Positions 7,196-59,741 of a stretch of DNA of 64,000 bases are shown here, piece after piece. Origin of the DNA: Medicago truncatula (taxonomy: Eukaryota > Streptophyta > Magnoliopsida > Fabales > Fabaceae); assembly GCF_003473485.1 (NCBI RefSeq), contig NC_053042.1:12420501-12484500 (forward strand), written 5' to 3'. A program made the position numbers and the translations under genes. How positions within the stretch are numbered: position 1 is the stretch's first letter; the number at the start of each line of letters is the position of its first letter. The notes under the pieces were generated by a model, which was given only the letters and a program-made list of their open reading frames with translations, did not search any database and had not been told where the DNA came from.

Positions 7196-7924
7196 TTCAT
7201 GTGATGAATAGCAAGAAAGATGGAAGAGGAAATTGTTGATGAGTGTATAGTATGTAAGGTTGACCAAAATGGATGAGTTTAGAGAAAAATAAGGTACTTG
7301 TTTAAGTAGTTGGACGTGTTCCAAACGTTTGACTTTGAAGGGAAACTAGGAGGAAAATGTGTAGTATACTATACTAAGAGTGTGGCTAAGAATGTTTCAA
7401 AGGAACCACCGTGTTATTTCACTTTCTGGTTGAAATAAATGGTGGGACAATAGATACATGTGCTAGAATAGATCCATTCCAAAACGTGTTATAGGTAGCT
7501 TTTATGACAAGGAATTGATAAATAGTAAGTAAAACTTATTCGCACATTTGCAAGATTTTTGATGCAAATCGAGCGAGGATGTTCAACTTAATAATATCGG
7601 CATTGTGGGTTGAACGATTATTTTTTTTGTAATGCTAAAAAAATATTGTAGTTTGTAATGGTGTTAAAAGTTATAGGTGTTACAGAGACTCAAATACTTG
7701 GTCAAAATATTAAACTTTTTATTTTCCTGAAATAATTAAAATTTTGATGATTTTTTTATGTGAGGGAAAATTATATCTATAAGTCAAGAATGGACTAGTT
7801 TTTTTTTTCTTTCTTTCTTGATTTTGTTTCACAATAAACAAAAGGAAATACCAAGTCATGCTTGGTATATAACTCATTAATACTATTAGAGGTCTCATAA
7901 TATATAACTCAAGTCTTGTTTTTT
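7196..7924. other. XLG upstream region, no gene seen
   Basis: Presumed 5' UTR and promoter of the minus-strand XLG gene plus spacer. No recognisable element beyond A/T tracts. Confidence 0.4.
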
Positions 7925-17458: not shown

Positions 17459-19970
17459 ATGGCTTCTTCAAAACAAGAACAATCTTCCACCAACAAAGAG
17501 CTCCCACTAAAACAAATCCCAGGCAGCTATGGCCTCCCTTTCATCGGACCGATCTTCGACCGACACGACTACTTCTACAACCAAGGAAGAGACAAATTCT
17601 TCTCAACAAGAATCCAAAAATACAACTCAACAATCTTCAGAACCAACATGCCACCAGGTCCCTTCATTTCCTCAAACCCAAGAGTCATAGCACTCTTAGA
17701 CGCCGCATCTTTCCCGATACTCTTCGACAACAAAAAAGTCGAAAAACTCAACGTCCTCGACGGCACATTCATGCCGTCGACAAAATTCACCGGTGGTTAC
17801 CGTGTATGTGCTTACCTAGACACAACTGAACCAAACCATGCACTTATCAAAGGTTTCTATCTTAATACTCTTTTATTAAGAAAAGACACTTTTATCCCTC
17901 TCTTTAAGACTATACTTTCTGATGGTTTTAATGAGATTGAAGATGGGCTTTCTAGTAAAAGTGGTAAAGCTGATTTTAACTCTATGGTGAGTGTGGCTTC
18001 GTTTAACTTCATGTTTAAGCTATTTTGTGATGATAAAAACCCTTCTGAAACTATCCTTGGTGATCAAGGTCCTAAAATGTTTGATACTTGGTTACTCTTT
18101 CAACTTGCTCCACTTGCAACTTTAGGACCTCCTAAGATTTTCAATTATCTTGAAGATATCTTGCTACGTACGGTGCCCTTTCCTGCTTGTTTGACAAGGT
18201 GAGATTCATACCACACCCTTAAACATAGGATTCTTAATTTCTTGTTTATTTTATAAGTTTTTTTACTTCAGATTTTTATGTATTAACAGCATTAATTATG
18301 ATGAAAATGATGAAATAATAATCACTAAAGACAAACTTGAAAAAAGTACGGTATCAATTATTGATAAAAGGCTTAATAGCAGTTTTGACCTATCACGATG
18401 TAGCGATTTTAGCTCCTAACAAAATAAATTACAATCCAGCACTTTAAGTATTGCACTTTTTGCAATCTTGACTCAGACAAATTTTGACTGAGTCAAGGCA
18501 TATGTGGCATCCGTGTTAATGAGATCAAATACTTGAATTAGTCAACTTTAAATCGTAGACTCCCTCCTATTTTAATTGTAGCATTTGATTACTTCAAACA
18601 AATTAAAAAGAGATGATAAATGCGAGAAAAAGAGTGATTATTTTATTAAATTATTTTTATTAACGGTTGATGTATTTTTATTATCATAAATGTATAGTGA
18701 AAAATAATAACTAAAAAGCAATGGACATAATATTAATTCGAGCATAAAATATAAAAAAAATGAAAACTATATTGTGGTGAAAATGTGATGGTTATTACGG
18801 TACTTTTTTTTTTGTTACAAATTTTATTTCAAGATAAAAGTTGACATCTCTTTTTTTCATTCAGAAATTAATTGTTCTTTTTTTGGAAAAAACATGTATT
18901 TAAAAATATGTTTACATATTTTTGTTGTTTTTATAATTATGGATAACTCTTGATGCAATTCTTTTTATTGTTATTCAAATTCTTGCAAACATGAACTCCT
19001 TATTTATGATCAAAATCATGTGCAAACTGTGATAATTTATAATTGTCACTAGATTAGTATTTTACTCAAACATAATGATGTCTAGGAAGAATCTAACGAT
19101 TCCAAAGGAAAATTTAGATTCATGAAAATCAAAATCTAATTATTTTAAGGATTTATTTGAATATATACACTCAACTTTTTCATCGATAAGAGATAAAACT
19201 TTGAGCATTGTATAATGTTAGTGTATCCCTAACATTAAATTGTTGCGGCCAGGTCCTCTTACAAGAAGCTCTATGAAGCATTTTCTACTTCAGCTACAAC
19301 AATGTTAAACGAAGCCGAAAAAGCCGGTTTAAAAAGAAGCGAAGCTCTCCACAATATCATTTTCACCGCAGGCTTCAATGCATACGGTGGCCTAAAGAAT
19401 CAATTCCCAATCCTCTTCAAATGGTTAGGTTCATCTGGCGAAGAGCTTCACAAAGAACTCGCAAACGAGATAAGAACCGTGGTAAAACAAGAAGGCGGAG
19501 TAACAATTCAGTCGTTAGAAAAAATGCCGTTAGTTAAATCAGTTGTCTATGAAGCGATGCGAATTGAACCTGCTGTGCCTTATCAATATGCAAAAGCAAG
19601 AGAAGATTTAATCGTGAAGAGTCACGACGCGGCTTTTGAAATAAAAAAGGGTGAGATGATATTTGGATACCAACCTTTCGCGACAAAAGATCCTAGGGTT
19701 TTCGATGATCCTGAGGTTTTTGTGGCGAAGAGGTTTGTCGGCGAAGGTGAGAAGTTATTGAAGTATGTTTTGTGGTCTAATGGGAAAGAAACTGAAGAGC
19801 CTTCTGTGGGGAATAAACAATGTCCTGGGAAGAATCTTGTTGTGCTTTTGTGTAGATTGTTATTGGTGGAGTTTTTCTTGCGTTATGATACTTTTGAGAA
19901 TGAGACTAAAAATAATGCTTTTGGTGCTGCTGTTTCCATTACTTCACTCACCAAGGCTTCTAGTGTTTGA
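17459..19970 (+). CDS. CYP74-family P450 (CYP74C-like), copy 1, 2 exons
   Basis: Exons 17459-18198 and 19253-19970 (1458 nt, 485 aa) join through AG|G at a standard GT-AG intron. CYP74 enzymes convert fatty-acid hydroperoxides to allene oxides, aldehydes, divinyl ethers or epoxyalcohols without oxygen or reductase. Visible family marks: NQGRDKFFSTRIQKYNSTIF and PPGPFISSNPRV in exon 1, the modified I-helix GFNAYGGLKNQFP with its Asn, the ExxR-region equivalent YEAMRIEP, and the haem loop NKQCPGKN with the Cys ligand. There is no long N-terminal transit peptide, as in CYP74C/D types. At the F/L switch position (in NVLDGTFMPS) it has Leu, the state linked with hydroperoxide lyase. The 5' exon is more GC-rich than its surroundings. 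Exact subfamily is inferred from memory; AOS or DES function cannot be excluded. Confidence 0.93.
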
Positions 19971-21640
19971 ATTTGATTTTGCATTTCGTTTATAGTTATT
20001 GTTTTGTTCTTCCTTTTGGATTGTTTCTTCTCAATTTAGAATTTGGAGTTGAATATTGTACAAGTTTGTTTAATAATTTGTGTTTTCCATTCTTTGTTAA
20101 TTACATGTATATGAAATTTTATTAGTAAATAACATATCACACATGTATTGAAAGTATTTCGACGTTTTAAGTAGGGGAGCACAATTGAGATGTCGTCTTT
20201 TGATAATAGAGGTTAACGGTCTTACTCATTTTCACAATTGAGATAGTGACTTAATTTATACAAACTCGATTAAAACAAACGAAAGCATAAATATGTAACT
20301 CATAGTGAGCCAACAATATGATCGTTGTCTTAGCTGTAAAGACTAGGAGGCGAGTTTTCACTTTTAAAGAGTATTGTCGAGCGTCGTTAGAATTTCTAAT
20401 AATTTTTAAATAATGATATTTGAATAATCAAAAGTTGACAACTTATGAAACATCGTATAAAAATACGTTTGAAATTATATAAAAAGTGGGTCTGCTATAT
20501 CAAAAATTGTTTTCTTGAGACACAATCTCAATTTATGTACATAAAAAAAAAAAAAAAAAACTCTTTTTAACAAAATATATTAGACAATATTGAGAGCGTA
20601 GAGATTAAAAGTCATGGCTGTCATAACTTGAATATTCAAAATGTACATTGTCGATGCATGTTATGAATCTAGTTAAAGTTAATCAATTTTTAAAGTATTC
20701 ATATATGTCAACTATGAGAAAATATAATCTTATTAAAATGGAGCAAACATTTCAATTATTCTAAGTTGGAGATAATATTTTTCTCTTCTTTCTTTAATTC
20801 TATGAGATAAGCTTAATATTTTGTTGATACGATATATGACAATTCGTCTTATCCATTGGATTAGTCGAAATGATCAAATCCTAGCTTGGATATTAAATAA
20901 TTTTCTATTATCACGTGATTTTTAAAAAGATTGTTTTCTCCCTCAAAAAAAAAAAAAAAAGACTGTTTTAGTCCATTTTAGACTAAGCTATTCTTTAATC
21001 CTATATTTTATTTTTTTTGTCGAAAAAGTCTACGAAGTTTATACACACTATATACTGAAAATTGAAGAATATTGTATGTTCAAACTATAGCACCACAATA
21101 TTTCAAAGAGAAATGCTTTAAGAAAAAACGTTATTTTGAAAAACAATGTATTCAATCCATTGAAAATTTAAATTATTAACGCTTTTAATTCTTTAACAAG
21201 TGTCCTAGATCCTATTTTAAAATATACATACAACTACTATTTTGATGTACATCCCTATGGTTGAAAGAGGTAATAAGTAAAATCGAATTAAAATTGTTAC
21301 AACTATATATAGATGAATTTATCTTAATTGAATATGATTTACTACTTGCGTACAAACTACTAATTTATTCTCAAATCCGGCAAATTTCTATATAAACCTC
21401 CAAACGTACTCCATCTGATTAAACAAGGTTTTTCCAACGTACTAAATCTGATTAAACTAAGCAGTGATGTGTAGTTTACAATTTAAATTTCAAGTTCTCG
21501 TGGAACACGCATTCCATATTAATAATATATACTTTTTTAACCTATCTACCAACTGCAACAAATGCATGATAACGTTGTTTAGTAGAAAATGGAATATATG
21601 TTGAAGCCATCGAAGTACGCATGACAATAGGATGGAGTGG
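19971..21640. other. intergenic spacer after CYP74 copy 1
   Basis: 3' UTR then AT-rich spacer. A-tracts at about 20542-20562 and 20945-20960. No gene or clear element. Confidence 0.4.
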
Positions 21641-22090
21641 GGACGGATTTTACATTCCTCGTCCCCATATCCGATTCTCATATATTTATCCGTTGCCCTA
21701 CCCATTTTTAACGGGGATGAGTTATTGAACCATATCCCCGTTCCTGACGAGTTTGGGTATCCCCGCCTCATCCCCATCCTCGCATTGAATATTTTTTTTT
21801 AATAAAAAATAGAAGTTTTTTTTTGCAACCCTTAGAGAAATATTGTAATGCATTATCCAACAATATGTTCACTTTAACATTTGTTAGACCGATAAATTTA
21901 GTTGCTCCTTTAAATATCAGTGGTAGTTTTTATAACACGCCAATTATAAAACAAAATAACATGTCATGTCAACATATAGTAGTTTTCTACATTTGGGACG
22001 GGTTTGGGTATGGGTTCGAGGTGGGTACCTATATACCCGTTACACGTCCCATATCCGTGTTTTGAAATCGGGAAAAACCAAAACCCATAC
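21641..22090. repeat. GGGGAC/CCCGTCC-rich repeat, possible non-autonomous DNA element
   Basis: Left part is rich in GTGGGGACGG / CTCGTCCCCAT / TATCCCCG phrases and the right part in GGGACGGGTTTGGGTATGGG and CCCGTTACACG. This is typical of plant hAT-like repeats built from such motifs. I could not define inverted ends or a target duplication. Confidence 0.3.
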
Positions 22091-23027
22091 CGAAACCCAG
22101 TCAAAGTGGGGAAAATCCGTCAAATTGGATTTGGTTCAGGTGGGTAACCACATGTATGAATTTTGTTGTCATGCCTACATCGAAGCGTCCTTATCCTTTG
22201 CCCCCACCGTCTCCTCTTGTATTTGCTGGATATGTACTTCGAGAAATAGTCAATTTATTCCCTTACGATAAAATATTTCGATAATATTGTCATATTAGTT
22301 TCATCAGTCTACTTATTTATTGTTATATTAGTCCTTATAAATATTTATTATTGATATTATAAGAAATGCATGATTCTAAAGCGACCATTTTCTTGCAACA
22401 TGTCTTTAATGTCTTGAATCAACATGGTTTGTTAATGAAACTTATTTAAAGAAGACTTTATAAGATTTGATACAAAGCGAAGAATCAATATAGCCCACCA
22501 AGTCGTGGAAGCCTATATTCTTTGCAAGAATTAAACCGTGGTGAATGGCAAATTGTATTTATGGATATACTCACTTATAATGTCAAATAGACTAATGTTA
22601 AAAAAGATGAACATCACAATTTTTTTGACGTGTATGATCAAATTCACAAATGTTTGTTATACACGCCAAAACTTTTGCATGAAAATTGGAATGGAATTGA
22701 TCGTAATTTTTGATAAATTCGTCATCAATCTATAATTGGAATTGAAATAACTTTTTAAAAATATCAGCACATTATGTATGTTTATTATAAGCGAAATGTT
22801 AACTTGTGGTATAAGTTAAGTTAAGAAGTCAAATATAAAAATATGATCTTAAAAATTGTGTATTTAAAAATTATTTTTTAATTCTTTTCTTAGCTACTTA
22901 ATTAATGGCCTTAGGGCCTTAAAAAGAAACTACCGTCTTTTGGGCATAATTTAGCATGACATTTTTTTTAAATGATAAAAATAAAAGTGAATGTGATCAC
23001 TTGATAATAAACCTAAATTTTATTGAC
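22091..23027. other. intergenic spacer, no gene seen
   Basis: AT-rich; short ORFs here have no family resemblance. Confidence 0.35.
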
Positions 23028-23105
23028 TTTGAGCTTCGTTCAGTTAGTAAAGGACATTACATAATATATTCAGAGGTTGGGTTTCAAACTCCATTCACTC
23101 ACCCA
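23028..23105 (+). mobile_element. tRNA-derived SINE remnant
   Basis: Diverged box A (TTCGTTCAGTTAGTAAAGGA) and box B (GGTTGGGTTTCAAACTCC) separated by the ATAATATATTCA phrase, the same plan as the SINE at 27905. Old copy without clear target duplication. Confidence 0.45.
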
Positions 23106-23424
23106 ACTTTTGCTTTTAAGTTTTTAAGATGTTATATACACAACTTTTACTGTTAAAATTTTATATTTATCTTCTTAACTTGTGCTTTTAGATTAAATTT
23201 GCATTTTGTTTAAAGAAATACTTAAACATCTAGGCCTAAAATGGTGTTGGTCCAACACAACAGTGACGTCATTGATCATATCACATTATAACATGTTTCA
23301 TTTTTTATTGTTACCGTTAGAAAATAATGAAGGAATTAATCTGTATGTATCGTTAGTGTTCAATTATTTTATAAATATCTAATGATGTATTGTGATATCA
23401 ATTAAGAAAGAAATTTGATAATTG

Positions 23425-23970
23425 GACACAAAAATAGGGACACAATATAGACACCATCGTATGACACTATTCAAAAATATCATTTTTTTCTCTCTTCCTG
23501 TAGCTATTTCTCCTTTCTCTATCTCTCCCTTCTCTGCAAATCTCTCTCATCTCGAGTTCACCGGCCACCAACGTCCCACTCGCCGTCCGATGGCCGCCGG
23601 CGTCCCACTGTATCTATCTCTGACCCCATACTACTCGATGCGGCCATCGCCAAATCTCCTCACCACCACGCTGTCTCACCACCACCACCACCATAACCAC
23701 CACCACCATGCTTATTTCACTCGGATCTCAACAACCATATCTCATCTTTTTCTAGGATTCAACGACAACCACCATGCCTCCTTCTTCTCCGGTGATATTG
23801 GGTCTTCATCATTGGTGTAGGTGACAGAGAGAGAAGAAGAAGAAGAACGATGAAGCGAGTGAGTGAAGAGGCAACACACACAAAAGATAGGGGGATGATT
23901 TTACAAAATTGTCCTTGCAATTTAAAGGAAATTACAAAAAATCTCATTGGTGTCATTTTTGTGTCAAAAA
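23425..23970. mobile_element. candidate DNA transposon with GC-rich cargo
   Basis: GGACACAAAAAT...GACACCAT at the left faces ATTGGTGTCATTTTTGTGTC at the right, an imperfect terminal inverted repeat. Between them is a markedly GC-rich island (about 23540-23830) with CACCAC runs and CCGGCC/GCCGGCG phrases, quite unlike the AT-rich surroundings. The arrangement suggests a Mutator-like or other non-autonomous element carrying a piece of gene sequence. Similar AAATTTG near both ends may be a target duplication. Confidence 0.45.
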
Positions 23971-23999
23971 ATTTGTGCACGTTTATCATTTCCGATTAA

Positions 24000-26243
24000 G
24001 AAATATGAACACACTTGAGTTGTCATACCGTTAATTGTCACGACAATGCATCATTAAATGCATGTGTAAAGTAACTTTAGATGATTAGTGTACAATAATT
24101 AAACTCAATAATAAAGCATGCATGTCTATATAAGAGAGAGAGGGGAATGAAACATTTATATTGTAACATTAATATAATCATTTATGAAAAACATGAAGGA
24201 AAAATTAAGAGAAAAAATAGATATTACCAACAAACCAAATAATTATATGACAAAGAAGACTAAGTCATTCATATTTGAATTATGAGAGGAAATTTGAGTA
24301 TCCAAAGAAATTTGGAAGAGGATAAAGGTCGTCTCAAAGAAAAATTTGGACTTTTAAGTTTTTTTATGCAATCTGTCTACAATAATCCTTTTTAAACAAA
24401 ATATCATTTATTTACTTTAGAGGTTGTAAAAATTAAGTATAGGGTTTGATCGAGAAGACGAATATTAATTCAAAATTTATCACAAATTTATTTGTGAAGT
24501 ATAAATTTATGACTATTTACATAGTTAAATCTTTGAATCAAACATAATCAAATACACTTCCTCATTGAAGTATGAAAACATGATAGGAATTACTTGTATT
24601 TCACTATTAGGCCAGATAAAGGCACATTGTTTTTACATAGAAAGCATCACAATTATGGGTTGTTATAAATATTAGAAAACGATAAGCAATAACTGCAGCA
24701 CAATAAATAATTTAAAAATTATTTTCATGTTTTTATGAAGGAAATTCTCATAAAAAATAATCATGTGACATGTTAGATTATCAAGAGTTTAATAGTTTAA
24801 TCAAAAAACTCTTTTAATGAAACAATAACATAACATATAATCAAAAGAATATGAGTACTTTTTTCTCTTTTAACTCTTATTAAATAACTACATCCTTGAA
24901 TCAAACATAACCAGTACATTTCCTAAAAAAAAAAAAAAAAAGAGAAATATGATACATATATATAACTCTAAATTTTCTACCTCAATATTTTCATTCTAAA
25001 AATTTATTAAATGAAAAAATTACAATTAAAGTTTAATGAAAACTTTCCTTTGTCTCTAAGATATAAAAAATTCTAAGCTCTACAACGATTAAAAATTCAC
25101 CAATCAACCAAGGAAAAAATCATTATTTTTTCAAATACAAATCAAACACATAAAAAATCATAAATATCATCCCTTTGATCAGCAGTTTGAGAACATGATT
25201 GAGGCTTTGAGACTCATTTGTTGTAAAGGTTGTCTTGTTCGGTTGTTAGATTTGTTACTGTTGATTATGAATTCAATTGATTCATTCCTTATTTGTTCAA
25301 ATTTTAAGGTGATGTTATGTGGTAATATTTCCTCACTGAAGTGTTCGTCTCCATATAGTTACGCCAAACTCAAACGTATGTCACAGTGGTGAAAAAGAGC
25401 AAAAGAGAGGGTTAATTACGCCCAAAATGGTGGTGTGAATAGCAATATAACAAAATTTGCATTTTTAATAGATTTAAGAACAATTTTTTTTGGTAGAATC
25501 TTTGATGTCTTTTTTATTTTTTTTTTATTTTTAAATGAGGGTTAATTATCAGAGTATAGGTATGAGTCCCACCTCTCTCTAGGCCACCCTTCTCTGCTCT
25601 GTTAAGTCAAAGTGGTTCCCATCTTGAATGATCGTAGCCGTTCAGAAGTCAATACAATGTTTCAAAGCTTTTCAAGCTTATGATCATTTCCATGACTCAA
25701 ACCATATCGTCGATAACTCATTCCCATCATTTATTACCCTCACTCGGGTTATTCGATTCAACGTTGGAGACAAACTTAAATCTACCTTACGTATCCCAAT
25801 TCTATCGGTTGGTATTGAAATGTAAACTCATAAAAACATAGATTAGCCACCATTCTTTCACAAAAACACATTCACACTCCTCTAAAAAAAATTACACATC
25901 ACACACACTCATAAACAAATTTTGTTGGTTTCATCTTTGTTTCACTATGGTTTCATAATATGACTGACTCTTATACCCCTTTATTATTTTTTTTCACTTG
26001 ATGTTGCTTTCATCTTGCACAACCTAGAATCTAAATATGTTGTAACATACTCTTCCTTGTTCTGGATCGCCAATTATCTTCCGTGCTTAACATAATAGCT
26101 ACACTAGGAGTTTGTATTTGACCCTTTTATGCTTTTGGTATATTGGTGATTGTTTCATTTGTACTTCTTGTGCAAAGAAATAGTGGTTGATAATATTTTG
26201 CTTTTTTCTAAAAGAAAAAATTGTAGGTGTTAGCCACTGGAAC
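24000..26243. other. intergenic spacer, no gene seen
   Basis: AT-rich; no recognised element. 25195-25830 includes two short ORFs with no family resemblance. Confidence 0.35.
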
Positions 26244-26571
26244 ATGGATATACAAGAAATTCTCAATATATTCAATGGAAGAAATGTATCCCAATTCAAT
26301 GACGATTCTTACGAGGTATGTTGAATTTTGTATATTATTTTGGGATAAGTTGGAATGAATTTGTATAATTACTAAGTGATTTTATTTTGTTCATCCAAAA
26401 AAAACGTAGGTGCCATCGACAGATAAACTGAAAATGAATGATATGCTTGCAACTTTGATTTTAAAGATGCTACAAGATGTGTTGCTAACATATAGAGAAT
26501 TAATTTTAAGAGACAAGTTCGGAACAAATAATGAGTTACCATTTTCTAATCCATTGTGCAATATGAATTGA
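26244..26571 (+). CDS. possible small two-exon protein, 77 aa, unknown
   Basis: Two short open stretches join across a 94-base GT-AG intron: 26244-26315 (24 codons, ending ...DDSYE then GTATGT) and 26410-26571 (after ...CGTAG, 53 codons plus TGA). Both phases agree. The product would begin MDIQEILNIFNGRNVSQFND and end with SNPLCNMN, soluble and slightly charged, with a hydrophobic helix around LATLILKMLQDVLLTYRELI. The composition is more protein-like than its AT-rich setting. An AG just before GTGTTAGCC at 26226 would also allow it to be the last two exons of a longer, now decayed gene. I do not recognise the family. Confidence 0.35.
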
Positions 26572-26744
26572 CTGTTATATCCAACAATCGTTCTACGTTA
26601 TTTTTAGTGACTCACCCAAACTGCACAACGTGAAATCGTGTCACGATGACCAACTTACATGCCACGATTTCACATAATCTTCAATACCAATTTTGAGCCA
26701 AAAATCAACAAGAATCATAACCTCTGAAGCATGGGGGTATTCCA

Positions 26745-27240
26745 AACATAGAGAAATATTGGTACCAGATACATATCATATCGGGTACACGTACGGTACT
26801 CGTAACTTACGTACCAAACCGTACCATTTTTACGGAGTCGTTTCGCTGTAGTTGGTGAATCGAAAACATACGGGCGGTGGAAAAATAAGCAAAATAATTT
26901 TTCTTTTTTATTGTATTTCAGTTCTCTGTCTTTGATGAAAATAGTATTGAGGGTGCACAAAAAAAGTAAACTCTTTAGCAAAATGATGATAGAAGTGTGG
27001 TTAAACACATGATCAAAATACGAATAATATTATACTATTTTTCATTATAATTGATTTTTTTTTCTAAACATTTTTTACAACAACTATGATAGTAATTCAC
27101 ATGATTATTTTATTTTTTATTTTTTTTATGTTTTATATCAACACATCAATACTTTTTATTTTTTAAAATTTACCGTATTACACACCCGTACCTACGTACC
27201 TATACCGGATACCATACACGTACCTATGCATCATAGACCA
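26745..27240. repeat. GTAC-rich repeat stretch, unassigned
   Basis: Dense GGTAC/CGTACC phrases at both ends (26760-26830 and 27170-27235), with AT-rich sequence between. It looks like the two ends of an old DNA element, but no precise inverted repeat or target duplication could be fixed. Confidence 0.25.
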
Positions 27241-27524
27241 TAACAGTTGTGTGAAGTGCATCGAAAAGTTCATGTAAAGAATCACAATGTAAAGTACATA
27301 GAGGAGTTCATGCATTCATATATAGAGGTGAATAAGTGACAACTGAATCAGGGGTTCATAAAATTTTGACCATAGTTTTAGTAGGTAGGACCCCAAGTAT
27401 TTAATTTTGCATTAGAGCTTGCTTTTCATTTGTCATTTTTTACAAAATTCGAATGTATAGAAACATTTAAAGATGTAGAGATGAGAAACGAGTTTTATTT
27501 TATTTTATTTCATTTTTTTTTTGT

Positions 27525-27605
27525 AGATAGACGAAATGACAAAGCCATTATGAACTCATACACATAAGTGGAGGTATCGGAGTTCGAACCCCGAATCCCC
27601 GATCA
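27525..27605 (-). mobile_element. SINE-like fragment (poly-T headed, antisense)
   Basis: A T-run is followed by GTAGATAGACG...AAAGCCATTATGAACTCA...GGAGTTCGAACCCCGAAT. The same sequence occurs in the other orientation at 29735-29832, where it ends in an A-run. Box B-like GTTCGAACCCC is present in both. Confidence 0.5.
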
Positions 27606-27904
27606 TAACATCCTGCCATTGCTTGTTTTGTTCTTTGTCTCTTTTATTATAAGTGGTCAATTTAATCATTGTCTTCTTAAAGATACTCATAACTGATGTA
27701 TGAATATCAATATCTACATCTTGTGGAGAACATGATATTTTTCAGGTTTGTCAAATATCTTGATGAAGCAGAACACTTTACCATTAAATAGTAATAATAT
27801 ATTTTGACAGAATTGAGTTGGATATAATTGATTTCGCGAGAGAAATTATTTTCTTTATCTCTCCATTCACACCATCTGTTTATTATTTTAGTTTGAATTT
27901 TGAA

Positions 27905-28000
27905 GGTCTCTATGAACTTAGCCAGTTGGTAAGGACAATGCATAATATATGCAAAGTTCGGGGTTCGAATACCAACCGGCGGCCACCACCAAAAAAGTTT
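27905..28000 (+). mobile_element. tRNA-derived SINE
   Basis: Box A-like AACTTAGCCAGTTGGTAAGG, the ATAATATATGCAAAG phrase, and box B-like GGGGTTCGAATACC, then CCACCACCAAAAAA. Same family plan as 29180-29310. Confidence 0.6.
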
Positions 28001-28328
28001 GAACTTTGAAGTCACCTTATCTTTCTTGAATAAAAAGAAAGTGAGATAATTTTTTGTTATTTGAGATAAAATCATATTAAAAATTTCATATCTCACTTAG
28101 ATTTTAGAAAAATAATTGCTTTTATTTGATAATATTTCTTATTTTATTTTTAAATTAAAGCAAGTGAGGAGGATTCACATATCCATTATAAGAATAATTC
28201 TTATGTTATCACTTATCGAGCTCTCTTAATTACTTTCTGTTATTAAAGAAAAAGCTCCCTCACTTTCTCAATTTCCTTACTTAATTTGTCAAAGAGATCG
28301 ATAAAGTGAGAACCCTTTATTTATTTTA

Positions 28329-28811
28329 GGTTTAAATGATCTTTTGGTACCTTAAGTATTTAATTGGTATTGCTTTGATCCCTTAACTAAAAAAATATAA
28401 TTGTTTGAGTATTTAAGTTTTTTTTAGTCTCGTTTTGGCCCCTTCTGTTAGATTTCCATTAGGGTTTAGAAAAATAGTTAACTCATGGACACGTGTCACC
28501 TTGTCATTGGTTCCGGGATTTTTTTTAAAAAAAAAAATTTATTTCAATATTAAAAATATATTTTTTTTATAAAAAAAGGATTTTTTTTATTAAAAAAAAA
28601 GGATTTTTTTTTATTAAAAAAAAATATTCAGCCAATCACAAGGTGACACGTGTCCACACTTAACGTTTTTTATTAAATCTAACGGAAACCTAACAGAAGG
28701 GATCAAAACGAGATTAAAAAGAAACTTAAATACTCATACAATCTTTTTTTTAGTTAAGGGACCAAAACGATACTAATTAAATACTTAAGGGACCTAAAGA
28801 GCATTTAAGCC
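28329..28811. mobile_element. Mutator-type MITE, 483 bp, 9-bp TSD
   Basis: Left end GGTTTAAATGATCTTTTGG and right end CCTAAAGAGCATTTAAGCC are imperfect inverted repeats that continue for well over 100 bp (GTTAGATTTCC at left, GAAACCTAAC at right). The A/T-tract middle also folds back. TTTATTTTA is duplicated exactly at 28320-28328 and 28812-28820. No coding capacity. Related in plan to 8053-8502. Confidence 0.87.
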
Positions 28812-29179
28812 TTTATTTTACTCTTCAATGCGTTTTTCCATTTCACTTCTCATCACCTTAAAAAACATCTTCTAGAACTAGAATAGATAGAGATTCATTA
28901 TATCAAAAACAAAAAGGAAGATATATAAGATACTTTAATATTAATTAGAAGAGACGTACTGTATTTTATCACTAGTACGTACGTGGGTCCTAAGCTGGAA
29001 ACACATTAGGGGAGAGGAAGAGGAAATTAGGGTTTTGGAGAGTATGAGAAAAAATGGAAATATTTTACATATTTTATTGAAATAGTATTTTTTTATTGAA
29101 CGATAAATTAATGCACGTGATTAATACATTTTAAATTTTAAAAATATTATACCAACATAGATGGATGTCAACCCTCTTT

Positions 29180-29310
29180 TTTTTTTGGTCAAGTAGCCTA
29201 GTGGCTAGAGCTCACACAATTTAATTGTGGAGAAGTGGAGTGTCCGGGTTTCGAACCCCGACTCCTGCATATAATATGCAATATCCCTACCAACTGAGCT
29301 ATGCTTACGG
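29180..29310 (-). mobile_element. complete tRNA-derived SINE, 131 bp, 17-bp TSD
   Basis: On the minus strand it begins CCGTAAGCATAGCTCAGTTG, with box A TAGCTCAGTTGGTAGGGAT and box B GGGTTCGAAACCC, and ends in an A-tail (the T-run at the left edge). GGATGTCAACCCTCTTT is duplicated perfectly at 29163-29179 and 29311-29327. The perfect duplication suggests a fairly recent insertion. Confidence 0.85.
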
Positions 29311-29734
29311 GGATGTCAACCCTCTTTATTTACTAGAAAAATAAAAATAAATTGAAATTGAAGAATTTATATAAACTCTTTAAAACCGACCTTAGTGCAA
29401 TTTTTTAGTTTTTCCAAAGTCCTCCTTTCCAATCTTAAATTAGAGAGATACTTTAGAAGGATGAGCTAAATCTAGAATGGTAGGTAGGGGCACTAAGTTG
29501 AAATTTAACCCAACTCATTGTTTATTGGTACGTTGTTGATTTGTTGTGCTTAGGGCTAATCGACTTTACTTGGTTAATTTTAAAACTAATCCTGTCCTAA
29601 TTATCTAACTTCATTCATCATTCTCAAACCATCTGCAAATTTGTTATAGTTGTTCTTTGTGCAAAAAAATCATTTTTTAATAAAATAGTACTTTTTAAAA
29701 GTTTTCATCTGTTATGCTGAAATTGTTAGGCCGG

Positions 29735-29832
29735 ACGTCATGATTGGGGTTCGAACTCCGGTACCTCAACTTTGTGTGTGTGAGTTTATGATGGCTTTAC
29801 CATCTCCTCTATCTACCCAAAAAAAAAATCAA
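29735..29832 (+). mobile_element. SINE-like fragment with A-run
   Basis: GGGGTTCGAACTCCGG box B-like motif, then ...TTTATGATGGCTTTACC...CTACCC and an A-run. Reverse-oriented partner of 27525-27605. Confidence 0.5.
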
Positions 29833-29947
29833 AAAATTACTTGAAAAGAGAAATAATTTTCATTCCCGTAAACAATCACTAAACAATTTTTGCTGCATAT
29901 CAAACTTTTTTATAATCACTTTGATTTCTAACTTTGAAAGTCAATAC

Positions 29948-30300
29948 TTTTTTTTAACAAGCCAAAATGGAATTAATAGATCAAAAGGAGTGATTCATCT
30001 CGCACAAGGCGTGCAAAAGAGAGCCACTCAAAGTTTGTACAAATTCAAGTCACTAGTGCCTCAACAAACGGACCAAAAACATAAACAGAAGAAAAACAAC
30101 AAATTTACGGTAAAACTCTCATGCAGAGTAGAGGGTGTCTCCACCAGTCATGATAGCCGAAAGAAAGGTTGACAGACACGCCTTTAACCACTGAAAGGAA
30201 AGCATTTTTACCCTGTTTGTCAACCGATGTAACTTTGATGTCTTCTGATTAAAAACACGGTTGTTTATTTCCTTTCAAATAACCCAGACACATGCAAGTC
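29948..30300 (-). mobile_element. LINE 3' remnant (zf-RVT end), antisense
   Basis: Read on the minus strand it encodes, with breaks, the last part of a plant LINE reverse transcriptase (FNQKTSKL, then VKMLSFQWLKA and a W/H-rich end). It runs into a tail ending in an A-run (the T-run at 29949-29957). A sister fragment lies at 53922-54330, with the same final AACAA...CAAAATG segment. Strongly 5'-truncated and old. Confidence 0.65.
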
Positions 30301-31900
30301 AGATTAATTTTAGAAAAGAATATGTGAATTGTGGTAACCCTGCTAAATGACCAAACTTACTAAACTAAATTATTTGTTTCTTTTAAGGAAAACTAAATTA
30401 TTTTTTGTTACCATGTAGCCTAAAAATAGCACCAATGTTTTTTATTTAGGACAAAACTTGAGTGCATTTCTTTAAGTATGTTTTTGAACAACTTTTTGTA
30501 TGATGGTTTTAAAGAAATCATGAGTAGTTAAATTAAGGACTATGAGAAAATACCTAAAGAAAGGCATTTATTTTTTTATTTTATTTTACTCTCTTTTGAA
30601 AAATAAAAATAAAGTCATCTAGTTTAACCTTGTACTATAGCCATATGCGCATAAACCGTGTTGTCCTTGTATATGTCATCGTCATTTTGTTCAAGCATTG
30701 CATGTACAAGAATGCAAGCTCCAACTCAACACATGTGAACTCATAAGTACCACATTAATGCCTTGCACCAAGAAACGGCAATTTTTCAATCATTTTTTCC
30801 TTTGTTTTGAATCATCATTTAAAAAAATATCAGTCATAAAATTCATGTTAAGCCTTCCATTTGAAGGAGAATATAAAAGAGTGACAACTAGAGTGTCCCA
30901 ACTCTTAGTAAGGAACTTAAAATTACAAGATTTTTCAACTTGCATCTATCTTCATTTTTATTTTTGGCAATTGATTTACAATACATTTAAAGGTATTTAG
31001 AAGTTCGATGCATGTTTTTACTATTTGAGTACTCCAACTTCATCAATCATCTAACAAGTTGGGCTTTACTTATGTCTGTCTTCTTTTGAATTAATTATTT
31101 AAGCTATTAGTGAATTTGTTCGCTTTCAAATTTAAAGCACTGAAAAATTGGTTGGACAATTTGCTTGGTGTAAATTTCGACCCCACAGCTAATCTATAAG
31201 TGAAATTATAAAAACGTGAGACAATTTTAGGCTGAATCTGTACACGACCAAATTTAGTGCGCTGAAATATTGGTTATACATACTTTTTACTTTTAATCCT
31301 ATTAATTTATTCGAGTCAAATTTAAAATGTGTTTCTATTAAAAAAAAATATGATTAATGCTATTTGTCCCAAGAGATGTGTTCCCGACATATATCAGGAT
31401 GGTGTAAAAGATTATTTTCGAAACTTTCCTACAAAAAAAAAAACTATTTTAAAAACTAAAACAAACCTATAGAATCCAAAATTAAAAAAATAAAAATAAA
31501 AAGAGTATATTTACAAGGATTAAAAACAGTAGCAAAAAATAAATAAAAATATAACGAATGAAAACAAATAAATATTTTTTTCATACACATTCCTTCAACA
31601 AAAAAAAATCATATACATTATTTTAGTCTCTACTATTAAGTCAATATGTATTTTAACGGCCGCGTTTAGAGCACTGAAAAAAGTTTCTCAACAAATAATG
31701 AGTTCAAAATTTAATTTTTATAACTAGGTTTTCAATATTTTTATGTTGAATTTTTTACATTTAAAAAATTCATATTTAATACATTCTATATTAAAAAATT
31801 CTAACTTTTTTATAAATAAAAGTTGCTAATTTTGTAGGACTAAAAATATACTTAACTTTGTATTTAAATTTTAATAAAACACATATCATGAGTTCTACTA
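30301..31900. other. intergenic spacer before CYP74 copy 2
   Basis: AT-rich; no gene seen. The ORF at 30698-31000 has no family resemblance. Confidence 0.35.
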
Positions 31901-31909
31901 CTACCACTC

Positions 31910-31917
31910 TTTATAAA
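31910..31917 (+). promoter_or_regulatory. putative TATA box of second CYP74 gene
   Basis: CTTTATAAAG about 75 bases before the ATG; the following CATAACCAAACCA leader is shared with copy 1. Confidence 0.5.
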
Positions 31918-31987
31918 GAAAACAGCTATACCCATTAGTCATAACCAAACCATTTAACCTATCAAAATATCGAGTTTCATATCTCCC

Positions 31988-34896
31988 ATGGCAGCATCTT
32001 CACCACAATCTTCCACCACCATCAGCAATCACCAGCAAGAGCTTCCACTAAAAGAAATCCCAGGAACCTATGGCCTCCCTTTCATCGGACCGATTTTGGA
32101 CCGACATGACTTTTTCTATAACCAAGGCAGAGACAAATTCTTCTCAACAAGAATACAAAAATACAATTCAACAGTCTTCAAAACCAACATGCCACCAGGT
32201 CCATTCATTTCCTCAAACCCAAGAGTCATAGCACTCTTAGATGCTTCATCGTTTCCGATCCTCTTCGACAACAAAAAAGTCGAGAAATACAATGTCTTCG
32301 ATGGTACCTTCATGCCATCGATAGACTTCACTGGAGGCTACCGTGTCTGTCCTTTCTTAGACACAACTGAACCAAACCATGCACTTATCAAAGGTTTACT
32401 TCTTAACGTTCTTCTTTCTGGAAAATACTCTTTTATCCCTCTCTTTAAGACTATACTTTCTGATGGTTTTAATGAGATTGAAGAGGGGCTTTCTGGTAAA
32501 AGTGGTAAAGCTGATTTTAACTCTATTATGAGTGTGGCTTCGTTTAACTTCATGTTTAGGCTATTTTGTGATAACAATGACCCTTCTGAAACTATCCTTG
32601 GTGATCAAGGTCCTAAAATGTTGGACACGTGGATTCTCTTTCAACTTGCTCCAATTGAAACATTAAAACCTCCTAAGCTTTTCAATTATCTTGAAGATCT
32701 CTTGCTTCGTACTGTTCCCTTTCCTGCTTGTTTGACAAGGTGAGATTAATACTACGTATTTTAACATATAGTTTTATATTGAGAATTTTTTTTTTCTTTT
32801 CATCAGATTCTCTTTAATTATATAAGGATTTGATTACCATACGTATATAAGGATTTTAAAAAAGATACTTTTATTTTAACTTATTAAAAAGTAAGGTGGT
32901 CTTAGCTTTTAATTTTCTAATAATTCAACTGCTAACATGGACCTCTAAAAAATGGTCTAATTTTTTTAGTAAGTTATATGATAAAAATAAAATTTAGTAA
33001 AGTATGTTTCAAGATTTTTCTAATAATTTTCTAAAATTAATTCAACTGCTAAAAAATTTATAATAATTTTTAATTTTTTTAAATAAAATTTCAACATCAA
33101 GGTCATATAAGAGTCCAAGACCTATCTTAAGGGTCTTAGCTTCATGGTCTAGGCCTTTAGTGAAGTTTCATGGTATAAACCAAGTTAGTAAAACTTCATA
33201 GTCTAGACCTACACTTACAACTTTATCTTAAGAACAATGTCAAAACCTATCTTTGGAGTTCTCGATGGAGGAGATTTGAGAGGCGATTATTTTGGTAAAG
33301 GATAAGAAGAACATGTGACCATTGCGCGGGGGGAGGGTTCCTTGTTAAAAGGCTTTTGTCCTACTTTATAACCTTGATACTGAAGATTATAAAGTTCAAA
33401 AACCTCATTCTTAGGGGATGCCGATTGTGTTTTGTGCGACGGGGTGCCGCAAACGAAAAATCATTTGTTCACCACATGTGTTTTTGCAAGGGAAATTTGG
33501 TATGAGGTTTTCAAGTGGCTAGGGTGGTAATAGTGCTTCCAAGTACATATCTACTTTAATTTAAATCCCATTTACCATGGCTAGGAAAGGCAAGAGGTTA
33601 ATTTGGCAATGGTGATATGTCATCTAGTTATTTGACTTATTTGGAAGACGAGGAATGTACGAAAAAAAATCCAGAAAATGCTTTATAGGGAGATAGTTGA
33701 TAACTTTAAGAGTGTGTCCTAAAGTTGATTTTTTGGGGGTCCTTCTTGCCTTTACCATGAATGACATTTTCCCTCTAGAATGTATTCTAAACCAAATGTA
33801 CTTTGCTTTTGTATTTTCTTTGGTTCTTTGGATGAGGTCAGTGCCACTTTATTCAAATCATTATCGTAGAATGATCTAAGTCTTTCAATCCTAAAAAAAA
33901 CACATAAATCTCTTCTTGTATTACTCCATTTTTTATCTATGTAATGATAATTTTGCTATTTAAATATATGATAAGTTTTTTAAGTGCATTAATTATATCA
34001 CCTCTTTTAAAATAGTAAGAAACAATACGTACATGATAAAAAAAAAAAAGACAGTGTGTCATGAATATGAATTTTTAAGTACCCAAATATTATGATATAC
34101 TACTTTGATCCAGGGTTTGAATGATATAAACTTGAGGTGTGACCCTTACATTAACTACATTATGACATGTTTGGCTAGGTCCTCATACAAGAAGCTCTAC
34201 GAAGCATTTTCTTCTTCAGCTGTAACGATTTTAAACGATGCAGAAAAAGCAGGGTTGAAAAGAAGTGAAGCCTGTCACAATCTCATTTTCATGGCAGGCT
34301 TCAATGGATACGGCGGATTAAAGAATCAATTCCCAATACTCTTCAAATGGATAGGTTTATGCGGCGAAGAGCTACACAAAGAACTCGCAAACGAGATAAG
34401 AACCATTGTAAAAAACGAAGGCGGGGTAACAATTCAGTCGTTAGAAAAAATGTCATTAGTTAAATCCGTTGTTTATGAAGTTTTGAGGATTGAACCTGTC
34501 GTTCGTTATCAATATGCAAAAGCAAGAGAAGATTTAATTGTGAAGAGTCACGATGCAGCTTTTGAAATTAAAAAGGGTGAGATGATTTTCGGGTACCAAT
34601 CTTTTGCTACTAAGGATCCTAGGGTTTTCGATGATGCTGAGATTTTTGTGCCAAAGAGGTTTATTGGAGAAGGTGAGAAGTTGTTGAAATATGTTTTATG
34701 GTCGAATGGGAGAGAAACTGAGAACCCTACTGTCGATAATAAACAATGTCCTGCGAAGAATCTTGTTGTGCTTTTGTGTAAATTGTTTTTGGTGGTGTTT
34801 TTCTTGCGATATGATACTTTTACGTTTGAGACTAAAGATGCTGTTATTGGTGTTTCTATTACCATTACTTCCCTCACAAAGGCTCCTACAATATGA
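31988..34896 (+). CDS. CYP74-family P450 (CYP74C-like), copy 2, 2 exons
   Basis: Exons 31988-32739 and 34179-34896 (1470 nt, 489 aa), with the same intron place and phase as copy 1. Exon 1 is very similar to copy 1 after a slightly longer Ser/Thr/Gln-rich N terminus. The I-helix reads GFNGYGGLKNQFP (Ala to Gly relative to copy 1), and the haem loop is NKQCPAKN with the Cys kept but Gly replaced by Ala. At the F/L switch site (NVFDGTFMPS) it has Phe, as in allene oxide synthases, where copy 1 has Leu. YEVLRIEPVVRYQYAKA replaces YEAMRIEPAVPYQYAKA. The 1.4-kb intron holds a LINE remnant. The gene is open throughout, so it is likely functional, perhaps with a different product from copy 1. Confidence 0.93.
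33225..33901 (+). mobile_element. 5'-truncated LINE remnant in CYP74 copy 2 intron
   Basis: Encodes, with several breaks, the zinc-binding end of a LINE reverse transcriptase: DADCVLCDGVPQTKNHLF followed by CVFAREIWYEVFKWLG and IWLIWKTRNVRKK. It ends at an A-run at about 33893-33901. It has the same sense as the host gene and is absent from the intron of copy 1. Confidence 0.75.
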
Positions 34897-36027: not shown

Positions 36028-37970
36028 ATGAGGATAGATTTTGAAGATGAAGCAGCAGCTCAATTGATTACTTCTGATCTCACTGACCTTGCTTTGGCTG
36101 CTAATAACTTCATTCTGCTTGGTGTCTCAGGTTCTGGAATCTCCGTCCTCCAACTAATTGCGTCTATTGCTGCTATGTATGTAATCTAAGCTCTGAATTC
36201 CATTTCCTTACAATTCTCTTCAAATTCATCCTTATATAATTTTTTCCTATATTCATCGCTTGTTCACATCTGTTGCAGATAAGCAACTTATTGTGTTTGT
36301 TTTGTTTTGTGAAGATGTGTGTTTGATTTTGAATTAGTTTATTTTAGTTAAAATTAAGTTGAATGTGGAGTGGTTTATGTTTGAATCATATAAAAGTGAG
36401 TTGATTAAAAAAAAGGATTGAGTTTAAAAATCACGTTTTAAGTTAAAAGCTAAAAACCATAGCTTCAAGTTAGAATAGGTTAGAATTTGTGTTTCGACCT
36501 AACACAAACCCACAAAACCGGCTTGTGAGGTGAGGACCGCCTCCCTGCTTATAAACACTTAATCAGGCCATATCACTTCCAATGTGGGACACCCACCTCA
36601 TGCCTGGGACTGGACATATGGAGCATAGCCAAAGTGGCCCGCTAGCGGAAACCTGATAGCAGGTGACCCTACGAATCTTGGATGGACTCGGATACTATCT
36701 TAAAATTTTTCGTTGGGCCTAAACTGTAGTCATGTGCTCTGAGCCGTACTGCTACACTCGTTGCATTTTCCGCTCCAATTACTCTGTTGCACTTTCGGCT
36801 CCAATTACTCTGCTACCATACGCCCGAGTGTCTGCCCTCTTATCAATGAACATGAGTCATATTCAACGCATTTCCATTTTAGTCTGTGTTGAGTTAAGCT
36901 TTCCTTTGTCTTCTAAAGCTATATATATGTAAATTTTATGTGTCTAGATTAAATTTGCTACAAAGTGATTTGCCGAAGCGGGTGTTTTTCCATGTTATTG
37001 ATGGTAATTTTTGTTTGTGCACTGCAGTTATTTGTTGATTTTGGATCGTACAAACTGGAAGACCAACATTTTCACATCACTACTCATTCCCTACATTTTC
37101 TTAAGCCTTCCCTCTTGGATTTTCTCCATCTTCAGGTGATTAGCTTTTCATGCTTTATTGTTATTAACTTCCTACCCTTCATTTTACTCAAATACCAAAT
37201 TTTGTGTTTGTTATTTTGTTATCATGCTACTTATTTTCATGGCTTCACAGGGCAGAGATTGGGAGATGGATTGCTCTCATTGCTGTTGTATTACGACTTT
37301 TCTTTCCAAGACACTTCCCTGGTATGTTACAATTTCACAGAGTGATATCACTCTTATTTATTAGATGCACATTATAACGGCGTCTCTGTCAACATATTTG
37401 CTGTTATTCATTAACATAATTTATATATATTTCTCAGTTCAAATTGTCCTACATCACCTCAAAGTTATATAGATAGATGTTAGTTTGTCCCTAAAGATGT
37501 AGCCTAGTGTTATAGGTTGGAACGCTGAAGGAACGAGGTCTAGGGTTCAATCCCTGCTGTTAACAATTTCCCCTCGTCCTAACAATTAACCACTTTTTCC
37601 CTATGTTGGTCCATTAGGAGCAGCGTAGAACTTGCAAAAAGGGAACAAGAAAGAATACTACGAAACATTTTCCCACTGTAATGCATAATTTTTCGTCACG
37701 GTTATCGCAGATTGGCTGGAATTACCCGCCGCTTTGATTCTTCTTATTGTTGTTGCTCCCGATCTATTTGCAAACACCTTTAGAAGTGATGCAGTTGGCG
37801 GCGTGGTAGTATGCCTTATCATTGCATGTTATTTGCTGCAAGAACATATTCGGGCATCCGGTGGCTTTAGAGATTCATTCACAAAAGCTTATGGCATGTC
37901 AAATACAATTGGCATAATTCTTCTGCTAATCTACCCCATCTGGACATTGGTTCTCTATATTACCACATAG
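36028..37970 (+). CDS. COR413: COR413-type cold-regulated membrane protein, copy 1, 4 exons
   Basis: Exons 36028-36176, 37028-37135, 37251-37321 and 37711-37970 give 588 nt, 195 aa. COR413 (WCOR413) proteins are multi-spanning proteins of the plasma membrane or thylakoid that rise with cold and ABA; their biochemical role is unsettled. The model reproduces family signatures in order: YLLILDRTNWKTN, LLIPYIFLSLPSW, IGRWIALIAVVLRLFFPRHF, PDWLELPAALILLIVVAP, CYLLQEHIRASGGFRDSF and GIILLLIYPIWTLVL. About five or six hydrophobic segments are visible, and there is no transit peptide, so the plasma-membrane type is likely. The start at 36028 (MRIDFED) matches the AMKTD-like region of relatives. Upstream in-frame codons back to an ATG at 35959 also read open, and an ACG sits where relatives have their first Met. 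A TRIM fossil lies in intron 1 and a tRNA-like repeat in intron 3. Confidence 0.92.
36495..36722 (-). mobile_element. TRIM fossil in COR413 copy 1, intron 1
   Basis: Carries CCAATGTGGGAC (complement of the TRIM start GTCCCACATTGG), GCTTGTGAGGTGAGG, and a GACTCGGATACTATCTTA segment resembling the primer-site edge. A partial, diverged TRIM; the related copy is at the same place in COR413 copy 2. Confidence 0.6.
37495..37575 (+). repeat. tRNA-like repeat in COR413 copy 1, intron 3
   Basis: TGTAGCCTAGTGTTATAGG resembles a box A and CTAGGGTTCAATCCCTGC a box B. A near-identical piece is in the same intron of copy 2 (about 41320-41395). Likely an old SINE present before the duplication. Confidence 0.5.
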
Positions 37971-38350
37971 GCATAAACATAGGGTGGAGTTTGTATTCGG
38001 CTGATTTAAGTGTAATAATTTGGCTTCTATGTTGTTCATTTGATCGAAACCGATATCTAGGAACTTACACATGTGCCTATAGTTGGTATGTGTATAAATA
38101 TGAAGTGAATCATTAGTGGAAGACTTTTTAGCTTCAACAATCCTTAAAAATATGATTAGCAATGCTGTATTTTTGTATCTTGTGTATTCACAAACTGATT
38201 ATTGTACTTGGAAATCATAATTTGGTTAGCCTGTGGATCATATATCATTGTGTTTCTTGAAGTGCAGACCTTGCTACTTCAGTTGGAGAAAATTTTAACA
38301 TTTATAATTTTGAAAATATTGTTATAAGTAATCATTCTTACAAGAATTAT

Positions 38351-41846: not shown

Positions 41847-41860
41847 TTCTTCTGGTAATC
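41761..41860 (+). repeat. 50-bp tandem duplication in COR413 copy 2
   Basis: CAAAAGCTCATGGAATATCA starts at 41761 and CAAAAACTCATGGAATATCA at 41811, and similarity continues through GGCATAATTCTTCTG in both units. Copy 1 has a single unit. Confidence 0.92.
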
Positions 41861-42350
41861 TACCCCATCTGGACATTGGTTCTCTATATTACCATATATA
41901 TAGGCATTAACATAGAGTGAAAAATTTGTATTTGGTTGATATAAGTTTACGATTTGGCGATTTGATCGAATGTGAAGTGAAATATTATTGGAATACTTTT
42001 TTGGCTTCATTAATCATTAACAATATTATTAGCATTGTTGTATTTTCGTATCTTCTTGTGTATTCACAAACTGTATATTGTACTTGAAAATCATAATTTG
42101 GTTAGCCTGTGGATCATACACCAATAGTTTCTTGAAGTGCAGTCATTGCTATTTCAGTTGGAGAAAATTTTAACATTTCATAATTTTGAAAATATTGTAA
42201 GTAATTATTCTTACAAGAATTACATTCGGAGTTGCAGTTTTAACATATATGATTACTATTATACTTATAGATTATCATCACTTTAGTCAATACAATCAAA
42301 TGTACAGAAAACCAAATGGATTTTGCATAAAATGGCCACTTGACATATGA
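41847..42350. other. spacer between convergent COR413 copy 2 and LACS
   Basis: 3' regions of the two convergent genes. 41847-42210 matches the downstream flank of COR413 copy 1. Confidence 0.5.
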
Positions 42351-58519: not shown

Positions 58520-59405
58520 TCTTGTGGTGGATGGTAGTTCATTGTATTGTATCAAATATCTGCTATTGTGAAAAATGTCAGTGGAATATTTGTGTATCAA
58601 TTTCAATGAATATATATTCATATGGAAATTCTTATCTTGGATTTCTTTTGATATTGTTTAGGGGTTTTATGTTTAGAAATTTTTTGCTTTGATCATGACT
58701 ATGAGCTTAATTCAAATCTTGACAAACTAATTAACCTGTAAAATATATCTTCCTTTTGACAAAACCTGTAAAAAATTATCGAACATAAGATGTGACACAT
58801 TACTAAGATATTGACGGTGTGCATATACCCTTGTAAGTTGTTTCTTGAACACCTATTTTTGTACATATGCATTTTTGTTGTTGAGTGTTATGTCGATATT
58901 TGTTTTCAAGTAGCTGTCTGATGAACATATATCGGCCAAATACGCAGACACGATCAAATTAGAATAACAGTAACCAAAATCATCATCTTATCACATAAAA
59001 CCACATAAATCAAGATCCCTTTATACTACATCAGCTGTAGTTGACATTTTCAACATTAATTAGAATACATTAGCCAAATAGAAACATGATCAAATTTCAT
59101 TAATTAAGCAAATGAGATTTTCTGCTAACAACGGTGGAATACATGAGCATTAGTACAAAGAAATATAAATCTAATTTATCATGGTTTTAATGAGAAATCT
59201 GATTTTCTATTCACACTCATGACACTATAACTCAAATTTTTATGTCTCTACAATCACAATGTGACTGTGATTTGTGTTGAGAAGCATGATAGAGATCAAA
59301 AAACAAAAAAGAAATAAATCAAGAGAAAAGTTGACTGCAATGAGCAATCAAGAGAAAAGTTACCTAAACTAATAAATATTAATCAACTTAAAACAAAATT
59401 CATCA
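58520..59405. other. spacer downstream of DC1 gene
   Basis: 3' UTR and AT-rich spacer. 58465-58960 has a diverged duplicate at about 60520-61160. Confidence 0.5.
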
Positions 59406-59735: not shown

Positions 59736-59741
59736 TACATG

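Follow-up and report, generated by a model that had tools for sequence, protein, structure and literature searches.

Two intact CYP74C genes in tandem

A 64,000-nt window of the Medicago truncatula genome, the whole stretch of DNA that was analyzed, contains two intact two-exon genes of the cytochrome P450 subfamily CYP74C, both on the + strand and with starts 14.5 kb apart (Table 1). These genes, referred to here as copy 1 and copy 2, carry different residues at the position equivalent to Phe137 of Arabidopsis allene oxide synthase (AtAOS), a "toggle" associated with the choice between allene oxide synthase (AOS) and hydroperoxide lyase (HPL) activity. Each copy has a single GT-AG intron, which interrupts the two proteins at an identical position. 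The spliced models encode proteins of 485 (copy 1) and 489 (copy 2) amino acids, which are identical at 398 of 485 positions (82%) and differ at 87, and which match Pfam p450 with scores of 61 and 49 bits, respectively. Three alternative models were rejected: an acceptor at 34136 in copy 2, which would give 503 amino acids and insert 14 residues that are absent from copy 1, and two shorter versions of copy 1 (473 and 468 amino acids, donor at 18189).

An NCBIfam scan returned just distant P450 models and one unrelated model, all far under their cut-offs. In phmmer searches of solved structures, copy 1 exon 1 matched only the allene oxide synthases of Arabidopsis and guayule (three distinct sequences), and these three were also the top matches of the whole of copy 2, well ahead of five weak hits to P450s. 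The heme Cys loop of the CYP74 family, with its nine-residue insertion, was found in both copies: the span from WSNG to the Cys was 17 residues in all eight aligned sequences, including the copies and two solved AOSs. The heme Cys is Cys437 in copy 1 and Cys441 in copy 2, and the I-helix groove Asn that replaces the acidic residue of monooxygenases is Asn289 and Asn293, respectively (AtAOS 321). Copy 2 thus retains the I-helix Asn and the heme Cys, together with the Glu and Arg of the K helix.

Opposite states of the toggle residue

The preliminary description of this DNA had placed the AtAOS F137 equivalent within the motifs NVLDGTFMPS (copy 1) and NVFDGTFMPS (copy 2), and this placement was borne out. 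In ungapped phmmer alignments over the motif, copy 1 exon 1 and whole copy 2 aligned with the AtAOS chains 2rch (DLFTGTYMPS) and 2rcm (DLLTGTYMPS). These two chains differ exactly at the toggle column, with Phe in 2rch and Leu in 2rcm, a difference from which 2rcm appears to be the F137L mutant of AtAOS; misalignment of the toggle was excluded by this pair. Counted from F137, the I-helix Asn is residue 321 and the heme Cys residue 471, in agreement with what we take to be the standard AtAOS numbering. As the preliminary description had stated, the toggle is Leu in copy 1 (here Leu100) and Phe in copy 2 (here Phe104), and both codons lie within the interval that it had given for the difference (17740-32330).

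Table 1. Window positions of the exons, introns and active-site codons of the two CYP74C genes
Feature	Position	Strand	Remark
Copy 1 exon 1	17459..18198	+	Open frame; GT donor at 18199
Copy 1 toggle codon CTC, Leu100	17756..17758	+	AtAOS 137 equivalent; motif NVLDGTFMPS
Copy 1 codon GCT, Ala118	17810..17812	+	AtAOS Ser155 site; counted from gene model
Copy 1 intron, 1054 bp	18199..19252	+	GT..AG; protein position as in copy 2
Copy 1 exon 2 with stop	19253..19970	+	Spliced protein matches Pfam p450
Copy 1 codon GCA, Ala290	19380..19382	+	I-helix groove, AtAOS 322; counted from gene model
Copy 2 exon 1	31988..32739	+	Open frame; GT donor at 32740
Copy 2 toggle codon TTC, Phe104	32297..32299	+	AtAOS 137 equivalent; motif NVFDGTFMPS
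Copy 2 codon CCT, Pro122	32351..32353	+	AtAOS Ser155 site; counted from gene model
Copy 2 intron, 1439 bp	32740..34178	+	Not significantly similar to the intron of copy 1
Copy 2 exon 2 with stop	34179..34896	+	Spliced protein matches Pfam p450
Copy 2 codon GGA, Gly294	34306..34308	+	I-helix groove, AtAOS 322; counted from gene model
Copy 2 codon CGT, Arg360	34504..34506	+	SRS-5 region, AtAOS 389; copy 1 and HPLF have Pro; counted from gene model
Copy 2 codon TGT, Cys441	34747..34749	+	Conserved heme ligand; counted from gene model

CYP74 relatives in the genome and direction of the toggle change

A genome search with copy 1 as the query (430 Mb, 42 contigs) identified at least six CYP74 genes: the two window genes, a paralogue with a single open frame on contig C4, two further single-frame genes on contigs C3 and C1, and one gene on contig C2, which was recovered as exon pieces and then spliced. 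The C4 gene is HPLF, since published M. truncatula primers (two forward primers, and the reverse primer minus its site tail) matched it exactly; HPLF is a characterized 9/13-hydroperoxide lyase of this species (PMC2180173; this and the other publications cited were available as excerpts, to which the statements drawn from them refer). We take HPLF to be MtHPL1/CYP74C13, names that no source consulted equates with it and that do not occur in the excerpt of PMC2180173, in which the HPLF paper is cited as CYP74C3. The names CYP74C12/MtHPL2 and MtHPL4 have been used in publications (PMC8467197), neither of them tied in that excerpt to copy 1 or copy 2. The C3 and C1 genes look like CYP74A AOSs, judging from a long N-terminal extension, a Phe toggle and FNS in the I helix. 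The C2 gene looks like the CYP74B 13-lyase HPLE, with a Leu toggle yet FNS in the I helix; a published M. truncatula HPLE primer matched the genome with one mismatch.

In a tree of the eight sequences, copy 1 and copy 2 were joined with support of 100/100, and the pair was joined to the characterized HPLF, also at 100/100, which places both copies in CYP74C and rules out other P450 families. The intron that begins at 18199 in copy 1 and at 32740 in copy 2 is absent from HPLF and from the two CYP74A-like genes, which are single open frames, and the CYP74B introns as modeled sit at other positions; the shared intron was perhaps gained in the lineage of the two copies.

With 87 of 485 positions different between the copies, a difference at any one named site is not improbable by chance. 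The weight of the toggle difference comes instead from conservation of the site within enzyme classes, to which copy 2 is the exception among the six genes found: the toggle is Phe in the two CYP74A-like genes and Leu in the CYP74B gene, HPLF and copy 1, and copy 2 is the sole Phe-toggle gene among the three CYP74C genes found in the genome. Since HPLF and copy 1 both have CTC, a simple outgroup comparison points to Phe as the derived state, reached through a single C-to-T change in copy 2. That Leu arose twice, once in each of copy 1 and HPLF, would be less parsimonious but is conceivable on so small a set of sequences.

Changes at other product-control sites

Eight positions named in the literature as controlling the product (137, 155 and 318-323) were mapped onto the alignment. 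HPLF and copy 1 have Leu, Ala and Ala in common at 137, 155 and 322. In copy 2, the derived changes include Ala to Pro at 155 and Ala to Gly at 322 and, in substrate recognition site 5 (SRS-5), Ala to Val at 387 and Pro to Arg at 389. The I-helix groove reads LGFNAF in HPLF, AGFNAY in copy 1 and AGFNGY in copy 2, so that copy 1 itself differs from HPLF at 318 and 323. The AOS letter is present in copy 2 at one of the three control sites, the toggle. Gly322 was found in none of the other seven aligned sequences, and neither was the combination Phe/Pro/Gly/Arg at 137/155/322/389. At 155 and 322, copy 2 resembles neither the AOSs nor HPLF. Its active site is a mosaic, not that of a clean AOS.

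After exclusion of 27 unpolarizable positions and 2 in HPLF gaps from the 87 differences, comparison with HPLF assigned 35 changes to copy 2 and 23 to copy 1 (p = 0.15). Changes in copy 2 fell on three of the eight control positions (p = 0.015), or on two of seven when site 137 was left out (p = 0.08); with SRS-5 positions 386-389 added, the counts were 5 of 12 (p = 0.0008) and, without 137, 4 of 11 (p = 0.005). These enrichment tests are weak, since the changes were already known when the site sets were composed, plainly so for the SRS-5 set. Copy 1 had no changes at the same 12 sites, a result expected about half the time (P = 0.55). Clustering of the copy 2 changes at product-control sites is suggestive, not proven.

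Age and divergence of the pair

Pairwise comparison of the copies gave a dN of 0.098 and a dS of 0.367 by the NG86 method and 0.099 and 0.349 by YN00, values that argue against a recent pair. Wholesale gene conversion was rejected, since third-position differences were spread along the genes, with 2 to 11 in each of 16 full 30-codon blocks and the fewest at codons 154-183. A shared promoter or intron was likewise rejected: a single 46-bp match (E 3e-7) was found in 2 kb of upstream sequence, and the best match between the introns had an E value of 0.15. With dissimilar introns and only this one upstream match, expression of the two genes may well differ. Positions 33400-33560, in the copy 2 intron, resemble by eye what we take to be the zinc-binding tail of a long interspersed nuclear element (LINE) reverse transcriptase, and this LINE-like stretch may account for the greater length of that intron.

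Predicted activities of the two enzymes

All CYP74 enzymes form an epoxyallylic radical, which is then oxidized (AOS), hydroxyl-rebound (epoxyalcohol synthase [EAS]) or opened (HPL and divinyl ether synthase [DES]) (PMC10813956). According to the same review, the toggle is Phe in all AOSs and in two EASs and Leu in HPL and DES. Three L-type CYP74C enzymes, M. truncatula CYP74C13 included, gained AOS activity and showed lower EAS and HPL activities when mutated at the toggle and groove, although the excerpt does not assign the individual mutations to individual enzymes; a toggle substitution in tomato LeAOS3 reduced AOS activity and brought new EAS activity; and six CYP74C enzymes once called 9/13-lyases are double HPL/epoxyalcohol synthases (PMC10813956). 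CYP74C allene oxide synthases are known from tomato and potato (PMC10255379). The preliminary description had also stated that changing Phe to Leu turns AtAOS toward lyase activity. This agrees with one source, which names Phe137 alone (PMC3552686); another gives the conversion as the double mutant F137L,S155A (PMC6627107).

From the gene structures, residue identities, phylogeny and constraint, which were obtained directly, we infer polarity, reaction, location and substrate. Our favored reading, held tentatively and at somewhat less than even weight, is that copy 1 is an HPL/EAS and that copy 2 has shifted toward AOS, most likely with substantial AOS activity and possibly with EAS or mixed products. 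An older tandem duplication would have yielded two CYP74C enzymes. Copy 1, which retains the HPLF letters, would act as characterized CYP74C HPL/epoxyalcohol synthases do, converting 13-hydroperoxides mainly to aldehydes and forming more epoxyalcohols when given 9-hydroperoxides. Copy 2 would have gained the Phe toggle by the single-base change, along with its further active-site changes (155, 322, 387 and 389), and the aromatic ring at the toggle would steer the epoxyallylic radical toward oxidation and then proton loss, to give the allene oxide. The preliminary description had assigned aldehydes to one enzyme and allene oxides to the other. The equivalence of the site to Phe137 and the gain of AOS activity in CYP74C mutants speak for that division; "aldehydes" is too narrow for an HPL/EAS, Phe occurs in some EASs and lyases, and sites 155 and 322 of copy 2 do not carry AOS letters.

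Copy 2 perhaps acts on 9-hydroperoxides outside the plastid and feeds alpha-ketols, not jasmonate. The core motif is preceded by 14 residues in copy 1, 18 in copy 2 and 11 in HPLF, compared with 90 and 57 in the CYP74A-like proteins, and in tobacco cells HPLF was observed on lipid droplets as well as in the cytosol (PMC2180173). Given these short N termini and the location of HPLF, the allene oxide of copy 2 may enter 9-ketols as opposed to plastid jasmonate (ketol chemistry, PMC10255379).

Several observations weigh against the AOS shift and the location proposed for it. All four aligned AOS or AOS-like sequences have Ser at 155 and either Ser or Thr at 322, and copy 2 has none of these; Ser at 322 is itself no clean AOS mark, since the CYP74B lyase combines Ser322 with a Leu toggle. 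Copy 2 has Arg at 389 and alters two positions that are otherwise invariant in the eight-sequence alignment (Tyr75 to Phe and Gly258 to Lys). The location argument is soft, since HPLE is plastid targeted (PMC2180173), yet in the CYP74B gene just 22 residues precede the core motif. Branch omega values were 0.33 for copy 1, 0.21 for copy 2 and 0.11 for HPLF; that of copy 1 is not distinguishable from 1 (p = 0.21), those of the two copies do not differ (twice the log-likelihood difference [2dlnL], 0.25), and their split is soft because HPLF is nearly saturated at silent sites (dS 1.75 and 2.18). Finally, RjEAS and SmEAS, both epoxyalcohol synthases, also have a Phe toggle (PMC10813956), as do, contrary to the rule of that review, the moss and spikemoss lyases SmHPL1a/b and PpHPL (PMC8578206).

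RjEAS and SmEAS are both of the described plant EASs, and their toggle fits a reading in which copy 2 is an EAS or a mixed EAS/AOS/HPL, the combination of Phe toggle, Gly in the I helix and Pro155 leaving the radical to be hydroxyl-rebound instead of oxidized. We regard this reading as rather unlikely. Gly322 is unmatched in the other aligned sequences; the lancelet EAS/AOS CYP440A18, with the groove V-M-F-N-A-V, has Ala, not Ser or Thr, where copy 2 has Gly (PMC8124189); and EAS activity is already present in characterized L-type CYP74C enzymes (PMC10813956). The toggle and groove mutants of three such enzymes nevertheless gained AOS activity, and their EAS and HPL activities fell. The Phe-toggle lyases, together with the 82% identity between the copies, would instead suit a copy 2 that is still an HPL or HPL/EAS, with similar products from both enzymes and the toggle buffered by other changes. 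We regard this as distinctly improbable; no Phe-toggle angiosperm lyase turned up in the literature excerpts, where no search was aimed at one.

Improbable, too, is the view that copy 2 encodes a damaged enzyme or is a recently formed pseudogene, with active-site changes that arose as constraint was lost. Arg389, Lys258 and Pro155 are radical changes, more polarized changes fell on copy 2 than on copy 1, and its Pfam score is the lower of the two. Against this, its frame, splice sites and heme Cys are intact, the rate difference between the copies is not significant, and its branch omega, estimated against the nearly saturated HPLF outgroup, is below 1 (2dlnL = 6.68, p = 0.0097). Copy 2 does not look to be decaying.

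Significance of the pair

No report of opposite toggle states in this pair was found among the matches listed in the open-licence literature, which was available in part. A CYP74C AOS is a known kind of enzyme; the arrangement as sister genes and the Phe/Pro/Gly/Arg combination look new. It is possible, although on the doubtful side, that copy 2 is a naturally remodeled CYP74C site (Phe137, Pro155, Gly322 and Arg389) beside a sister with HPL/EAS letters, with a product profile unlike that of any known AOS, HPL or EAS alone; it would then be nature's equivalent of the toggle mutants made in the laboratory. As reviewed, the toggle rule was built in large part on engineered mutants and on comparisons between distantly related enzymes. 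In this model legume, a tandem pair that has the ancestral state adjacent would test whether nature has used the same single-base route between HPL and AOS and would reveal the secondary sites that moved along with the toggle. It also serves as a warning that such a gene, probably labeled a hydroperoxide lyase by similarity alone, may be something else.

Surroundings of the locus

A second tandem duplication lies just downstream of the pair (36067-38349 and 39782-42222), with pieces 78-91% identical and in the same order; it holds one open reading frame (ORF) of at least 110 amino acids, at 36953-37342. On the - strand, the ORF at 2661-3269 gave a match to the G-protein alpha subunit family and that at 6149-7345 has no Pfam match; together (2661-7345), they may form what we assume to be an extra-large G-alpha gene. 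A C1-domain ORF is located at 57353-57940 (+). Direct repeats occur within 58457-62951, where 58457-60447 pairs with 60524-62951, and the second set overlaps an ORF with PPR repeats at 62160-63392 (-).

Comparison with known CYP74 enzymes

HPLF is like both copies in belonging to the same genome and clade and in its short N terminus, and it shares Leu/Ala/Ala with copy 1. It is identical to copy 1 at 316 of 481 positions (66%) and to copy 2 at 304 of 481 (63%). HPLF is a single open frame, whereas the copies have an intron, and copy 2 is unlike it at all three of sites 137, 155 and 322. Arabidopsis AOS (CYP74A, 2rch) and 2rcm align ungapped with the copies at the toggle column, the I-helix Asn and the Cys loop, with identities to Arabidopsis AOS of 236/474 for copy 1 and 234/474 for copy 2; its Ser155 and Thr322 are absent from both.

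The Phe-toggle EASs RjEAS (CYP74A88) and SmEAS (CYP74M2), whose main products are epoxyalcohols (PMC10813956), resemble copy 2 at the toggle but belong to other CYP74 subfamilies. Tomato LeAOS3 (CYP74C3) and potato StAOS3 are CYP74C enzymes, like the copies, and have 9-AOS activity, the 9-AOSs tested being mostly nonchloroplast (PMC10255379). As an AOS, LeAOS3 comes under the statement of the review that all AOSs have Phe (PMC10813956), the residue of copy 2. Tomato AOS3 has Phe-295 and Ser-297 in the I helix (PMC3552686) where copy 2, matched to it by motif and not by sequence alignment, has Phe and Gly.

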